Below, one piece after another: positions 45,914 through 51,134 of a stretch of 64,000 bases of DNA (the stretch's first letter is position 1; every line of letters starts with the position of its first letter). This stretch comes from Candidatus Desulforudis audaxviator MP104C (GTDB taxonomy: Bacteria; Bacillota; Desulfotomaculia; Desulfotomaculales; Desulforudaceae): assembly GCF_000018425.1 (NCBI RefSeq), contig NC_010424.1, positions 620,001-684,000 of the forward strand. The letters run 5' to 3'. Made by a program: the position numbers and the translations under genes. The notes beneath the pieces were generated by a model, which made no database searches, was not told the origin of the DNA, and worked only from the letters and a program-made list of their open reading frames with translations.

Positions 45914-46105
45914 TTAGACGGCGCGGATCACGCGGCCGCTGCGCAGGCAGCGGGTGCAGACCCGAATCCTCCGGGGTTTGCCGTCCACCAGTGCCCTGAC
46001 CCGCTGCAGGTTCGGTTCCCAGGTGCGCTTGGTACGGATGTGCGAGTGGCTGAGTTTCATCCCGACGACCACACCCTTACCGCAAAGGTCACATTTCTTG
46101 GCCAC
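45914..46105 (-). CDS. rpmB: Large ribosomal subunit protein bL28
   Basis: 63 residues from the GTG at 46105, right after GGAGGTGGAGTC; the longer upstream frame has no ribosome site. AKKCDLCGKGVVVGMKLSHS and HIRTKRTWEPNLQRVRALVD are L28 signatures. Four cysteines (CDLC and CTRC) give the zinc-binding C+ form. It is usually transcribed alone in Firmicutes, as here, and is about 60 bases from the next minus-strand gene. Confidence 0.96.
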   Translation of the reverse strand: MAKKCDLCGKGVVVGMKLSHSHIRTKRTWEPNLQRVRALVDGKPRRIRVCTRCLRSGRVIRAV

Positions 46106-46168: not shown

Positions 46169-47179
46169 CTAATTGGCCTGAAGCGGTGCCTCTCTCTCCT
46201 CGCTCCGTTCGGACGAGGATACGCTCAAGTTGTACCATTTTCCGCACCGGGAACCCCACCTGCTGACCAAGTCGCCGCCGATGTAGAACTCGTTCACTTC
46301 GCAGTTGTTAGGGCAGTCCGTGCAGGAAAAGGTGCGGGGCTGGCAGGTGAAGCCGGCGATTTGGGCCGCACCGCGGAAGTTGGTGGCCGTGCGCCGCCGC
46401 TCGGCATTGCGCTTGGCCAGGAGGGCGGCGCCGAAAGCACCCATAACCTGAAAGTTTTCGGGAACCACGATATCCAGACCGAGCCGCTTGTGGAAAGCGG
46501 CCCGGATACCAGCGTTGGCGGCCACGCCGCCCTGGAAAAGCACCACCGGTTCGATCTTGCGGCCGCGGGCCACGTTGGCGAGGTAGTTTCCGACCAAGGC
46601 GATACAAAGCCCGGCGATGAGGTCTTCCTTTTTGTAACCCATTTGCTGCTTGTGAATCAGGTCGGATTCGGCGAAAACCCCGCACCGCCCGGCGATCTTG
46701 ATCGGACTTTGCGAACGGATGGCGTAGTCGCCGAACTCCTCGATCGGGATACCGAGACGAACCGCCTGATGATCGAGAAAGGAACCGGTTCCCGCCGCGC
46801 AGACGGTATTCATGTTAAACCCCACCGGTACTCCGTCCCGAAAGAAGATGATCTTAGAGTCCTGCCCGCCGATGTCGATCACCGTGCGCACGTCGTTCCG
46901 GTAATGGCGTGCCGCGACCGCGTGGGCGGTGATCTCGTTTTTGATCACGTCGGCACCCACCATTATCCCCGCCAGCCGGCGCCCGCTGCCCGTGGTGCCC
47001 ACCCCGGCGATGGGCGGCTCGCCGATACTCTCGTGCAATTGCCGAAAGGAGTTCTGGATGGCCTGGATGGGGCCGCCCTCGGTCCGCAGGTAGGACCGGA
47101 ACAAAAGTTCCGCGTTTTCATCGATGACGGTCAGCTTGGTGGTGACGCTGCCCACGTCGATACCGAGATAGTAACGCAA
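46169..47179 (-). CDS. 2-hydroxyacyl-CoA dehydratase activase-like ATPase (HgdC/BadF family)
   Basis: 336 residues. The ASKHA-type ATPase core has YYLGIDVGSVTTKLTVIDEN, GVGTTGSGRRLAGIMVGADV, VIDIGGQDSKIIFF and QGGVAANAGIRAAFHK. The dimer [4Fe-4S] cysteines are in NTVCAAGTGSF and AGRCGVFAESDLIHKQQMGY. The C-terminus adds a cysteine cluster (CQPRTFSCTDCPNNC) beyond the classic activase. Such proteins pass an electron to a dehydratase with ATP hydrolysis. The only partner visible is the large protein upstream; no dehydratase subunits are present, so the target is unknown. The genes are one base apart. Confidence 0.9.
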   Translation of the reverse strand: MRYYLGIDVGSVTTKLTVIDENAELLFRSYLRTEGGPIQAIQNSFRQLHESIGEPPIAGVGTTGSGRRLAGIMVGADVIKNEITAHAVAARHYRNDVRTVIDIGGQDSKIIFFRDGVPVGFNMNTVCAAGTGSFLDHQAVRLGIPIEEFGDYAIRSQSPIKIAGRCGVFAESDLIHKQQMGYKKEDLIAGLCIALVGNYLANVARGRKIEPVVLFQGGVAANAGIRAAFHKRLGLDIVVPENFQVMGAFGAALLAKRNAERRRTATNFRGAAQIAGFTCQPRTFSCTDCPNNCEVNEFYIGGDLVSRWGSRCGKWYNLSVSSSERSEEREAPLQAN

Positions 47180-49330
47180 CTATGCTCCCTCCTCCAGCTT
47201 GAGACGACCATTCCGGCGGTCTTTTAGGATGTCCAGGAAAGCTTCCACCCGGGTCTCAAAGCCCGCCTCACCGGTCTGGTCGGTGATGATGAAGGTTAGC
47301 ACAGGAAGATCAAATTCCTCGCTCAGTTTTACCATAATATTCTGGGCTACGATTTCGGGCATACAGGTAAAAGGCATCAGGTGAATGATGCCGTCGATCC
47401 CCTCCTGCGTTGCCAGGGCGGTGAGCCCGACGCTAAAACGCCCGTGTCCGCCCACGTCGGTTCCCAGGTAGGGAAGCGCGGCCTGCTGAATCTGCTTCTT
47501 CCGTTCAGTGGCCTCCCGGGTCGGGAAGAGATTCTTGTGAAACCACTGGGTCACCGAAATCTCGCGATCTACCCAGACCCTGGGGTCGGTCGATTTGCCC
47601 AACAGGGATTCCAGGTGCATGTTTATGTGGGCTTCGAGCACCACCCAGATCTCACCGACGATCCGGACCCGGACCGGGTTGGTATCCTCGGTTTCGATGG
47701 CTTCCGCTTGGTCGCGGAACTCGCTCATCAGCATCCAGACCGACTCGGTGGAGGCGGCGCGCTCGACGCGGCGCACAAACTGGGTGAACAACCGGTCCAC
47801 CGTTCCCGGCCTGCTTTCGAAAGCGCGCACCCGGTGGCAGATGTTCTCGGCTTGGTCGATGGCGGCCATGCGGTGGTAGCCGGCGTACAGGGCCCGCAAA
47901 ATCCGCAACCACGAGGCTTGATTCGTGGTTCGCTTCAAGGTCTGGCGGAAGTCCGACCATCTTTCCCGGAGCGGCAGGGGTGAGTCGATGACGATGAGTT
48001 CGAACTCGTAACCCAGGCGGCGCAGCAACTGTTCTTGTACCTGGGCGTACCAGCCCAGCCGGCACTTGCCCTTGCCGCCGACCATGAGCAGGTGGGTGGC
48101 CCCTTTTTCCAACAGCCAGCGCATTTGACCGAGGGTGATGGTGAACGGCAGGCAGACGAACTCGGGGGACAGGTCCTTGCCCAGCTCCAGGACCTCCTTG
48201 TTGGCGTGGGGGGTCCTGATGGAATCCACGCCGCAGTCCGCCAGGGCGGAACGGATGGCCAGGTCCAGATGGCCCATGGTCGGCATGCCGATCACAAACC
48301 GGTCCGGACGTAGTCCCGGAACCTGCACTTTGGGGATGGTTCCGGAAGCGCCGGATGGAAGCGGCTGGACGTCCATGAACGCTTCGATCCGGGTCGTCAG
48401 TCCGGCGTCGGCGGTATGCTCGTCGAGGGTCAGGAGAAGGAAGGGTATTCCCTGCCGGGCGGCTTCCTCCTCGACGAAGTTTTCTATGATCGATTCTGGA
48501 CCGCACTCAAAGGAACCCACCAGGACCAGCTTATCCACCAGGTTATTCCGGAGATAATGAAGGGCGGCGCCGAGAAGCTGGGCTTCAAAACTCCACAACC
48601 GCTCACCCTCCGACACCGTTTCCATCTGGCGGCGGATCTCTTCCGGGGGGACCATCTCGGCGGTTAGAACCCGGCCGTACTGTTTGAACTTAGGCAGCAG
48701 ATCCATGCTGAAAGCGTCAAACAGGATGTAGGGGTGCCCGATAACGGCTACCGTTTCTTCCGCGGACATGGCGGCCGCCTGGCCGTCTCCGCGCCGGGGA
48801 GCTTTGGAGTCCAGAATGCGGAAAGCGTCTGGCGTTGACAGGCGTTTTTCCACACACAATGTTTCAAAACGGCGTTGGGCCTTCCAGCCGGCCTGGAGGG
48901 CGCGGCGGGTACGGTCAGGGCCGGCACCCAGAAGCAAACCGGTTTCGATCCATGTCTTTTCCCAGTGGCGTTTCCCCTGTGACAGGTCAACCACCGGGCT
49001 CAACACCTGAGCGCCGTTTTCGAGCGCGTTTTGGACCATGTACGGGATGCCTATGAATTTGGGACAGCAGTAGTTCTTGGGTTCCAAGCTGACCAAACAG
49101 GGAATAAAAAGGCGGTCGACGCCGCGGTCGAGCAACTCGCGGGCGTGTGCAAACAGCAGTTTTACCGCCACACAGGGCTCATCGGTCGGGCAAAATTCCA
49201 TTTTCTCCAGGATCCGCTTGGTGGTCGGCGGGGATACCACGAGTTGCACGCCGATTTCCCGGCAGAACTCGGCGTAGAAAGGGTACATATAGTAATAAGC
49301 CATTGCTCTGGGCAAACCTACGGTTACCAT
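47180..49330 (-). CDS. Tandem DUF2229 / CoA-dehydratase-activase-associated protein
   Basis: About 716 residues from the ATG at 49330, preceded by GGATGTGA; TTG 49345 is possible. Two homologous halves are visible. The first begins VTVGLPRAMAYYYMYPFYAE, has CPTDEPCVAVKLLFAHAREL and ends LTLDEHTADAGLTTRIEAFM. The second starts at RPDRFVIGMPTMGHLDLAIR, has PEFVCLPFTITLGQMRWLLE and ends FIITDQTGEAGFETRVEAFL. Each half resembles an HgdB-like dehydratase subunit lacking a clear full catalytic set. It likely binds iron-sulfur clusters through cysteines in each half. The function is not known. Confidence 0.85.
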   Translation of the reverse strand: MVTVGLPRAMAYYYMYPFYAEFCREIGVQLVVSPPTTKRILEKMEFCPTDEPCVAVKLLFAHARELLDRGVDRLFIPCLVSLEPKNYCCPKFIGIPYMVQNALENGAQVLSPVVDLSQGKRHWEKTWIETGLLLGAGPDRTRRALQAGWKAQRRFETLCVEKRLSTPDAFRILDSKAPRRGDGQAAAMSAEETVAVIGHPYILFDAFSMDLLPKFKQYGRVLTAEMVPPEEIRRQMETVSEGERLWSFEAQLLGAALHYLRNNLVDKLVLVGSFECGPESIIENFVEEEAARQGIPFLLLTLDEHTADAGLTTRIEAFMDVQPLPSGASGTIPKVQVPGLRPDRFVIGMPTMGHLDLAIRSALADCGVDSIRTPHANKEVLELGKDLSPEFVCLPFTITLGQMRWLLEKGATHLLMVGGKGKCRLGWYAQVQEQLLRRLGYEFELIVIDSPLPLRERWSDFRQTLKRTTNQASWLRILRALYAGYHRMAAIDQAENICHRVRAFESRPGTVDRLFTQFVRRVERAASTESVWMLMSEFRDQAEAIETEDTNPVRVRIVGEIWVVLEAHINMHLESLLGKSTDPRVWVDREISVTQWFHKNLFPTREATERKKQIQQAALPYLGTDVGGHGRFSVGLTALATQEGIDGIIHLMPFTCMPEIVAQNIMVKLSEEFDLPVLTFIITDQTGEAGFETRVEAFLDILKDRRNGRLKLEEGA

Positions 49331-49408
49331 TCGACTCACATCCAAATTGGTATAGACCCGGTCTTTCAGTATGCCCGCTTCCGGCAGAGAATACCAAAAA
49401 AATCGCCC

Positions 49409-49452
49409 ACTAGCATCAAAGCTAGTTTAGCAGAATATGGGCCGGTAGTCAA
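49409..49452 (-). promoter_or_regulatory. Promoter with palindromic operator-like site for the activase operon
   Basis: On the minus strand TTGACT (49447-49452) and TAAACT (49424-49429) are spaced 17 bases. The dyad ACTAGC-N6-GCTAGT (49409-49426) overlaps the -10 and the likely transcription start, well placed for a repressor. The rest of the 49331-49731 gap is AT-rich; it holds two AATTCATWATG repeats (49518-49528, 49564-49574) and the sporulation promoter below. Confidence 0.6.
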
Positions 49453-49731: not shown

Positions 49732-49992
49732 ATGGGTCGCACGAATCCGAAAATCGTCCCGGCAGCCAAGAACGCGCTTGATCAGATGAAGTACGAGGTG
49801 GCCGGTGAGATCGGAATCGCCAACTATCAGCAGCTTGACAAGGGTGACCTGCCCTCTCGGGTTAACGGTAAGGTTGGCGGCAACATGGTCCGCAAGATGG
49901 TGGCCTTTGCGGAGCAGGCTATGGCCCAGGGTAACGTAAACCAAGTCCGGATGACCGTTCCGCCCGAGCCTTTCGGTACGCAGGGCCAGTAG
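49732..49992 (+). CDS. sspA: Small acid-soluble spore protein, alpha/beta type
   Basis: 86 residues. SASP motifs are LDQMKYEVAGEIGIANYQQL (containing the E-IGI GPR cleavage region) and RVNGKVGGNMVRKMVAFAE. The protein binds spore DNA, shifts it to an A-like form and protects it from UV and heat. The ATG follows GAGGAGG. A sigma-G-like promoter lies upstream and a strong terminator downstream. The convergent gene at 50074 encodes GPR, its degrading protease. The exact paralogue name within the ssp family is arbitrary. Confidence 0.93.
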   Translation: MGRTNPKIVPAAKNALDQMKYEVAGEIGIANYQQLDKGDLPSRVNGKVGGNMVRKMVAFAEQAMAQGNVNQVRMTVPPEPFGTQGQ

Positions 49993-50073: not shown

Positions 50074-51018
50074 TTATTGCAGGTAGTCGGCAAAACGCTC
50101 CGGTATGATACCGGGATGCAAGGCCACCGATAACCCGCCGGCAATAATACGGGCGCAGTTTTTGATGAGATTGTCGATTTCCTTTGGGGTGACCATGAGC
50201 TGTCCGCCAAAGGGTTCGAGCAATTGTTGGATGATCCCCTCCATTTCGGCGGTTTGCGGAGGTGTCCGTCCGTGTATCTCGTAGAGCTTCACGATGGCGT
50301 CACGGGCGATAAACGCGGCGTGGACGACGGTCGGCACGCCGATGGAGATGACCTTCACACCCAGAGTCTCCTCGGTGAGTCCCTGGCGCTGACCGCCGAT
50401 TCCCGACCCGGGATTGATTCCCCGGTCACAGAGTTGAATAGATGAGGCAATCCGTTCGACCGAGCCGGCGGCGAGAGCGTCGATACAGATCACAAGTTCG
50501 GGCCGCACGTGCTCGACAACGCCCTTGATGATCTCGGCCGTCTCAATGCCGGTGATCCCGAGTACCCCAGGTGAAAGCGCGCTGACCACTCGGGTTCCCT
50601 CCGGGATATGCTCCGGAGCGAAGTGATAGACGTGCCTGGTTACGAACGTGTGGTTGGCGACCCGCGGACCCAGGGCATCCGGCGTAGCGTTCCAGTTTCC
50701 CAACCCTACCACCAGGATGTTCCCTTGTTCGCTCACGCGGATCATTCCTTTGAGGGCCTCGGCCAGTTCCCGGACTATCGCGGTATGTGCTTCGGGATCA
50801 GTAACCCGCAGTGCCGGCGCTTCAATTGTAATGTAAGTACCCGGGGGCTTGCCCATGGCCTGGGCTCCTTGTTCAGTGGTGATGTTAACTGTGGTGACCT
50901 TCCCGTTCTGAAACTCACGGCGTTCCACCACGACACCGGGGATTTCCCGGCCCGTCTGGGCCCGCAGGGCGTCGTGGGCTTCAAGGGCCAAATCGGTCGC
51001 AACACCACAGACTCGCAT
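50074..51018 (-). CDS. gpr: Germination protease GPR (SASP endopeptidase)
   Basis: 314 residues from the ATG at 51018, right after GGAGGCGGGTT. The N-terminal region includes the family's propeptide/self-processing zone (VRVCG, TDLALEAHDALRAQTGREIP). Conserved core segments are NILVVGLGNWNATPDALGPR, FVTRHVYHF, SALSPGVLGITGIETAEIIK, VICIDALAAGSVERIASSIQ and NPGSGIGGQRQGLTEETLGV. GPR cleaves alpha/beta SASPs early in germination. It is convergent with a SASP gene, separated by that gene's terminator. Confidence 0.95.
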   Translation of the reverse strand: MRVCGVATDLALEAHDALRAQTGREIPGVVVERREFQNGKVTTVNITTEQGAQAMGKPPGTYITIEAPALRVTDPEAHTAIVRELAEALKGMIRVSEQGNILVVGLGNWNATPDALGPRVANHTFVTRHVYHFAPEHIPEGTRVVSALSPGVLGITGIETAEIIKGVVEHVRPELVICIDALAAGSVERIASSIQLCDRGINPGSGIGGQRQGLTEETLGVKVISIGVPTVVHAAFIARDAIVKLYEIHGRTPPQTAEMEGIIQQLLEPFGGQLMVTPKEIDNLIKNCARIIAGGLSVALHPGIIPERFADYLQ

Positions 51019-51134
51019 AACCCGCCTCCTTGCTGGAACTGTTTTCAAGGAGTATGGTGGCCCGTACCGGAATCAAATATACCAGGCGGCGTCCGGGTTT
51101 ACACCAGGGCAACTGGAGGCAGAATATAGTGAAA

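Follow-up and report, generated by a model that had tools for sequence, protein, structure and literature searches.

ATP-driven enzymes of the 2-hydroxyacyl-CoA dehydratase superfamily carry out chemistry that is among the most reducing in biology. In the 2-hydroxyacyl-CoA dehydratase HadBC, which acts on a CoA substrate, two unlike subunits with three-cysteine cluster sites are served by a separate ATPase, HadI. Related folds are found in the double-cubane cluster protein (DCCP, with DCCP-R) and in the class I benzoyl-CoA reductases (BzdNO/MbdON), where, according to PMC11971306, BzdO has a three-cysteine site and BzdN six cysteine ligands for an [8Fe-9S] cluster. Here we compare with these systems a gene pair of Candidatus Desulforudis audaxviator MP104C that had been described in an earlier note as an orphan dehydratase-activase operon. 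One half of its larger product is a member of PF09989 (DUF2229), entitled 'CoA enzyme activase uncharacterised domain' in Pfam.

Organization of the locus and of its two products

The activase ORF and the large ORF are directly adjacent on the minus strand of the window, i.e. the whole analyzed stretch of 64,000 nucleotides, where we distinguish the following features:

46169..47179, minus strand: activase gene, 336 aa, BadF/HgdC-type ATPase
46244..46324, minus strand: C-terminal Cys4 motif of the activase, CxxCxNxC-x18-C, residues 286-312
47180..49330 including the stop codon, minus strand: large protein gene, N-half (DUF2229) and C-half (HGD-D-like) fused, delimited by ORF, start, Pfam and fold
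47183..48295, minus strand: C-half, residues ~346-716
48356..49330, minus strand: N-half, residues ~1-325, with PF09989 at 8-232
49367..49394, minus strand: candidate promoter P2, GTATT-N16-CATACTG, sigmaF/sigmaG-like, weak in the window
49409..49426, no strand: palindrome ACTAGC-N6-GCTAGT, probably incidental
49424..49452, minus strand: promoter P1, TTGACT-N17-TAAACT, presumably sigmaA-type, conserved in relatives
49732..49992, plus strand: gene divergent from the pair, 86 aa, whose translation we take to be a small acid-soluble spore protein (SASP)
50074..51048, minus strand: ORF that we recognize as the presumable spore germination protease gene gpr, with homologues adjoining the pair in relatives

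The large ORF spans 47180-49345 and gives 721 aa from a TTG start or, as in the earlier note, 716 aa from the ATG at 49330, immediately upstream of which stands GGATGTGAG. The activase matches PF01869 (E 3.4e-45) and TIGR00241 (E 5e-57). All 73 aligned rows retain both C127 and C166, as well as the four additional C-terminal cysteines (C286, C289, C293 and C312), bearing out the earlier description of an activase with an extra C-terminal cysteine cluster. The Cys4 motif is also present in 6 of the 7 large fused activase-DUF2229 proteins that were scanned.

The large protein matches PF09989 (E 8.3e-54; 182.9 bits against a cut-off of 29.4) and PF06050 (HGD-D; E 3.3e-10), and a profile comparison of the N-half with the C-half (E 2.2e-37) establishes the two as homologous, as expected of the two HgdB-like halves that had been proposed. 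Each half contains exactly three invariant cysteines, namely C58, C94 and C281 in all 92 aligned N-half rows and C398, C428 and C661 in all 99 C-half rows (721-aa numbering; the alignments comprise only ORFs above length limits, with identical sequences reduced to one copy). In a structural model built from an alignment of 37 fused rows (A3) every one of these cysteines is predicted to lie at the start of a helix; an alignment mixing fused and split proteins (A1) was dropped, having seemingly placed split N-halves on the C-half. The predicted structure resembles the subunits of dehydratases and benzoyl-CoA reductases (HadBC, DCCP, BzdNO), with most of the match contributed by the C-half (Z 15-16 over ~300 residues to HadC, DCCP and BzdNO/MbdON chains; next unrelated rows at 9.4). 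The best sequence relation of the N-half is to DCCP (E 2.3e-7, in an alignment of ~70 residues). The large protein thus does resemble dehydratase subunits, the lack of which would have refuted the earlier reading. Given the three invariant cysteines in each half, the large protein is itself a pair of dehydratase-type subunits, N and C, fused in one chain. Thus, the earlier statement that no dehydratase subunits occur nearby is accurate for separate genes but overlooks the halves of the large protein.

Neither half has the six conserved cysteines that define double-cubane cluster proteins, and the cysteine count rules out such a cluster in the N-half, hinted at by weak NF040772/DCCP matches. 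Matches to PDB sequences of dihydrodipicolinate synthase (E 0.14 and worse) were taken as chance. Some N-half rows contain additional lineage-specific cysteines at C52 (30/92), C83 (15/92) and C93 (27/92).

Distribution of the module and its sporulation-gene neighborhoods

The N-half, C-half and activase (N-C-A) constitute a recurring module widespread in anaerobes, a distribution at odds with the label 'orphan'. DUF2229 scores above its cut-off in 143 of 150 relatives, and the two genes indeed co-occur, with an activase within the locus at 56 of 79 loci (these and the family counts below were tallied by hand from tables) and at 20 of 20 in a second, hand-picked set of spore formers. Several genomes are incomplete, which makes absences unsure. 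The module is also found in phyla without endospores, and its basic chemistry is therefore not spore-specific. The fused lineage of the window is mostly encountered where other N-C genes are absent. In the activase tree, which takes in 6 of 24 activases from fused proteins and is not rooted on any known activase, the partial loci L002, L063, L064 and L080 are marked split_other yet fall in the window's clade, the 'fused' label of L120 is an overlapping-frame artefact, and the activase of L097 is a distant one.

The point missing from the earlier note is a recurrent linkage to sporulation genes. It is most apparent in a sister lineage, where N-C-A stands behind a gene of the GerA family (spoVAF-type) in the same orientation, within the sigF-spoVA region, at 16 of 20 loci (one locus per genome, the genomes hand-picked for long contigs before their neighbors were viewed). 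At 14 of these 16 the genes lie within 330 bp, and at 15 a SigF- or SpoVAD-like gene is also present. Among control regions the arrangement occurs in 1 of 19; L180 and L185 of this set have weak sigma-factor matches (29-31%). Counted by family, the module is at most 5 kb from SpoVAD in 18 of 25, N-C is lacking in 5 of 30 SpoVAD-positive families, and 2 of 7 SpoVAD-negative families have it. SpoVAD is present and N-C absent in G058 and G081; the match in G138 is sub-threshold (E 9e-4) and was scored as absent.

The link to spores is weaker for the window's own lineage than for the sister lineage. It adjoins SASP and gpr genes at 7 of the 13 loci with long flanks and does not at the other 6. Where genomes have the window lineage, N-C-A is absent from 14 of 15 informative spoVA regions, the exception, in G125, belonging to the sister lineage. 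Riboflavin genes near the window lineage are convergent on the pair and were judged to be positional. Among the literature matches listed (titles and abstract beginnings) no paper ties DUF2229 or this activase to sporulation, and the words 'activase' and 'dehydratase' are missing from the main texts of a sporulation gene set (PMC3533761) and of the C. difficile forespore regulons (PMC3789822).

Promoters and alternative interpretations

A perfect sigmaG-type promoter precedes the module of spore formers at 11 of 21 loci, as against 10 of 4000 random pieces and 0 of 34 upstream regions from other or unknown phyla. Counting against a spore role, none occurs in 26 upstream regions from more distant Bacillota. 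In the window, the SASP gene has an upstream sigmaG-type site matching at 8 of 9 positions. In the window lineage itself the conserved promoter is of the sigmaA type, and the spore-type block is weak: P1, presumably sigmaA-type by its consensus, is present at 10 of 10 loci scanned (two of them the same locus) and in 11 of 22 upstream regions in a wider scan; P2 matches at 7 of 9 positions with a spacer of 16, and related blocks occupy nearly the same site in 10 of 21 relatives.

In light of this gene context, we propose that the module is a presumably oxygen-sensitive, ATP-driven [4Fe-4S] reductase or dehydratase which serves spore formation or revival, a reading to which we assign a probability of about 0.5. 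A less likely interpretation is that the same ATP-driven enzyme acts on an acyl thioester in vegetative metabolism, with its spore-related neighbors reflecting inherited synteny. The conserved sigmaA-type promoter and the occurrence in phyla without endospores are in line with this, as are genes for LolA and beta-ketoacyl synthase directly downstream of the module in two Nitrospirota loci (L093 and L129; LolA at L139). However, the linkage recurs across 18 different families, and two loci that do not adjoin spoVA (L154 and L164) have sigmaG-type promoters of their own. More doubtful still is the idea that the pair reductively activates or repairs another metalloenzyme, as the ATP-dependent corrinoid activators do, and has no small-molecule substrate of its own; such a role would suit the very wide distribution in anaerobes and the fact that genes of a substrate pathway do not recur next to the window lineage, but the halves bear the three-cysteine sites of catalytic subunits and no client protein recurs among the neighbors.

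The earlier note also saw in the palindrome an operator-like element. It is exact and sits over the -10 of P1 (49452-49424), but its left arm is part of this conserved promoter, and in L068, of the same genus, the right arm reads ACCAGT while P1 is retained. The 2.35-Mb genome contains no second exact copy, and 20 relatives have none. Of random 107-bp pieces drawn from the window, 31% contain an inverted repeat with 6-bp arms and a spacer of 0-12, and 4% one with a spacer of exactly 6, which makes the palindrome weakly unusual at best. It is no evidence of an operator, and control of the pair by a local repressor is highly improbable.

Proposed mechanism and comparison with known systems

By analogy with the superfamily, C127 and C166 of a dimeric activase would bind a [4Fe-4S] cluster, and ATP hydrolysis by the activase could drive single electrons into the large protein at a very low potential. 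Each half of the latter may carry a [4Fe-4S] cluster on its three-cysteine site, with one iron left open. As for the conserved Cys4 tail, its role is probably to carry the electron on its way in, if it is not a structural one. The self-contained, ATP-dependent low-potential enzyme envisaged earlier fits all tests run, with the correction that the activase is not without its dehydratase. To judge from gene context, the module may in anaerobic endospore formers serve forespore development or reawakening, the fused lineage being the version kept by Desulforudis-type bacteria in place of the spoVA-linked one. More specifically, we tentatively picture the sigF-spoVA block as ending in the genes for a dedicated radical iron-sulfur enzyme, driven by ATP and made in the forespore, whose job the fused lineage has taken over in Desulforudis-type bacteria, a version that we consider somewhat less probable than a spore role in general.

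If true, super-reducing chemistry would take place inside the spore, for instance in the modification of a spore metabolite or lipid or in the restart of a metalloenzyme at germination. A member of this superfamily in the sporulation program of anaerobes would be unexpected, and would offer the first functional handle on DUF2229, whose Pfam title gives no function; we found no assigned function either for this domain or for the large activase-DUF2229 fusions. It would also make testable the question of which low-potential reaction an anaerobic spore needs.

Among other systems, we considered and set aside the complex that activates methyl-coenzyme M reductase; the text of PMC12176620 contains none of 'activase', 'HgdC', 'mmp15' and 'hydroxyglutaryl'. 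A CoA-substrate-specific enzyme activase is listed among selenium-gene associations in Slackia in PMC5322559. By its predicted structure, chiefly that of the C-half, the large protein shares its fold with BzdNO/MbdON, and the site of BzdO is like those of its halves, whereas the six-cysteine half BzdN has no counterpart in it. The fold is likewise shared with DCCP, which differs in having six cysteines in place of three invariant ones per half; the large protein, unlike it, joins unlike halves. HadBC with HadI is similar to the pair in fold, unlike subunits, separate ATPase and three-cysteine sites; in the pair the subunits are fused and the activase has a Cys4 tail, with an identity of ~15%. 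The large activase-DUF2229 fusions (~1430 aa) share with the pair both the Cys4 motif and the order activase, N, C, but are single chains whose activase domains, as sampled in the tree (6/24), form a separate clade.

The gene pair and the recurrence of its module

The pair consists of a large protein, in which a DUF2229 N-half is fused to an HGD-D-like C-half, and an activase.

The pair and its downstream neighbor in the window
ATG at 49330, minus strand: large protein, 716 aa (ORF calling instead begins at TTG 49345, 721 aa)
46169-47179, minus strand: activase, 336 aa, adjoining the large-protein gene
45916-46104, minus strand: short gene just 3' of the activase gene and in the same orientation, its product reading by eye like ribosomal protein L28 (presumably rpmB)

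Comparison with known domains and solved relatives reveals that the activase follows the usual BadF/HgdC-type ATPase pattern up to about residue 260, and its structure was predicted with confidence (pLDDT 90.9). Its tail extends past the matched region of five solved relatives (243-276 aa long) and contains a four-cysteine motif, CxxCxNxC-x18-C, which is invariant in 73 of 73 relatives and is also present in six of the seven large fused proteins scanned. A second activase of the same genome (L001, G000:C1:946378-947124; 260 aa) is without this tail. The genome additionally codes for a lone HGD-D/double-cubane-like protein (L005, G000:C1:1590151-1591101), whose match to NF040772 (E 5.7e-12) falls well short of that model's cut-off.

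The two halves, in one gene or in two, are seen together in 71 of 79 loci from genome contigs, and an activase lies within the locus in 56 (including L097, with a distant activase); several of the other 23 run into a contig edge. The genes for the N-half, C-half and activase (N-C-A) are side by side in 20/20 loci of relatives, and module loci were found in Bacillota, Thermodesulfobacteriota, Myxococcota, Nitrospirota, Actinomycetota and others. L074 and L069 are close relatives, both at 79% in the best segment. The earlier note's observation of the pair was sound, but the pair is not an orphan, given that the three-gene module recurs across several phyla.

Certain loci (L131, L132, L133 and L113) display additional N and C genes flanking a single activase, e.g. 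C-A-N-C-N, which suggests that the same activase may work with two catalytic partners. In two Nitrospirota loci (L093 and L129), LolA and beta-ketoacyl synthase genes occur 3' of the module, a hint of acyl-thioester chemistry; LolA is also seen at L139, likewise in Nitrospirota. The vicinity of L081-L091 (Thermodesulfobacteriota/Myxococcota) contains genes for a lipid-A-type acyltransferase, an MMPL transporter, a methyltransferase and B12 radical-SAM proteins.

Spore-gene linkage of the sister lineage

Recurrent neighbors of split N-C-A loci in Bacillota, which include the sister lineage of the fused form, are GerA-, GerAB-, GerAC-, SpoVAD- and SpoVAC/AE-family genes and a SigF-like sigma factor. 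Among 20 genomes whose loci were chosen regardless of their neighbors, a GerA-family gene is followed on the same strand by N-C-A in 16, with a gap of at most 330 bp in 14 of them (0.85 kb in L157 and 3.2 kb in L155), and 15 of these 16 loci also contain a SigF- or SpoVAD-like gene; control regions of the same genomes contain a GerA-family gene in 1/19 (Fisher 2e-6). A wider survey took one genome from each of 37 further families: 25 carry both SpoVAD and N-C, and in 18 of these the two lie less than 5 kb apart on one strand; the other seven have no such closeness among the matches listed.

Genomes with SpoVAD within 5 kb of N-C
G113, G114, G116, G117, G121, G123, G124, G125, G127
G129, G133, G137, G139, G140, G143, G144, G147, G149

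N-C occurs in 25 of 30 SpoVAD-positive versus two of seven SpoVAD-negative genomes (p 0.009); counter to the link, G058 and G081 possess SpoVAD with no N-C match. These data show, for the sister lineage, a spore context of the module that the earlier note had missed. In a third Bacillota group (L098, L103 and L108), yyaC, another spore gene, identified by TIGR02841 on the L098 copy, is found near the split module.

A scan upstream of N with a sigmaG consensus (GNATR-N17/18-CATNNTA) recovered all nine positions, always with spacer 18, in 11 of 21 relatives' loci, including L154 and L164 though they are not beside spoVA; these loci are related and therefore do not represent independent events. 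A perfect site is present in 10 of 4000 random 180-bp pieces of Bacillota loci, in 0/34 upstream regions from other or unidentified phyla and in 0/26 from more distant Bacillota. Of the ten loci that lack a perfect site, five have an N open frame that overlaps the preceding gene, and hence the two may be co-transcribed.

Neighbors and promoter of the window lineage

In the activase tree the fused Firmicutes form constitutes one clade (29 rows, SH-aLRT 100), and a separate 41-row group includes 29 spoVA/ger-linked rows (SH-aLRT 86). By hand count, no other N-C is present in 22 of 29 window-lineage genomes versus 14 of 121 genomes without this lineage; seven of the 29 do carry another. The spoVA regions of window-lineage genomes are without N-C-A in 14 of 15 informative cases, the exception being G125, where the sister lineage sits in that region; the L221 spoVA region stops at a contig edge. 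In the window's own genome (G000), in G001, G002, G004, G006, G007 and G050, and at loci L071 and L072, the pair has a gene for a small acid-soluble spore protein (SASP) and gpr as neighbors. Long upstream flanks are available for 13 window-lineage loci, of which seven (L068-L072, L074, L227) have these genes and six (L075, L076, L077, L079, L225, L226) do not. The sigmaG-type score is 8/9 for the site upstream of the window's SASP gene, and this genome's spoVAD is preceded by a 9/9 site.

The palindrome ACTAGC-N6-GCTAGT, previously taken as operator-like, is exact in the window and single-copy in the genome (one contig, 2,349,476 bases), and no exact copy was found in 20 relatives searched; in L068, whose protein is 90% identical, the right arm reads ACCAGT. 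The left arm overlaps the -10 of a TTGAC-N17/18-TAAACT promoter, which is kept in 10/10 loci of one scan (one a duplicate, L040 and L068 being the same locus) and in 11 of 22 window-lineage upstream regions, with more distant members mostly without it. The palindrome was over-read, and it is the promoter that persists. A sigmaF/sigmaG-like block upstream of the pair, whose copy in the window scores 7/9 positions with spacer 16, has counterparts at almost the same spacing from the start in 10 of 21 relatives (L039-L046, L076, L077), with single-locus scores that are weak save in L076 and L077.

Fold, proposed mechanism and relation to known enzymes

The N-half matches PF09989/DUF2229 in Pfam, and PF06050 matches two stretches of the large protein. 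Profile comparison aligned the two halves with each other over 316 columns (probability 99.9, E 2.2e-37). The best structural matches of an AlphaFold2 model of the large protein (pLDDT 86.8, pTM 0.89) are HadBC, DCCP and BzdNO, with NifEN and MbdON also at E < 0.001; fold comparison of the C-half gave Z 15-16, unrelated rows scoring no more than 9.4. Each half contains three invariant cysteines (N-half 92/92 rows, C-half 99/99), each placed by the model at, or just before, a helix start. C52, C83 and C93 of the N-half (721-aa numbering) are conserved in only some family members (30, 15 and 27 of 92 rows) and could alter the cluster of this half.

The pairing, conserved cysteines, fold relation and sister-lineage spore-gene linkage are established by these comparisons. 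By analogy with the superfamily, ATP hydrolysis by the activase would release one electron from its inter-subunit cluster; this would enter the fused catalytic protein, whose open-iron cluster would then perform a radical reduction or dehydration. From the present analysis only, we propose that the Cys4 tail could be the electron entry site and that the pair might serve the forespore or germinating spore. A spore component of this enzyme type in anaerobes would be surprising, if true.

As described in PMC11971306, the catalytic [4Fe-4S] site of BzdO has three cysteines and an open iron, and the double-cubane subunit BzdN has six cysteines. The three cysteines in each half of the large protein resemble the BzdO site, unlike the six of BzdN. 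The simplest reading makes the large protein a heterodimer fused into one chain and carrying two three-cysteine clusters, nearer to the hydroxyacyl-CoA dehydratases than to the double-cubane proteins.
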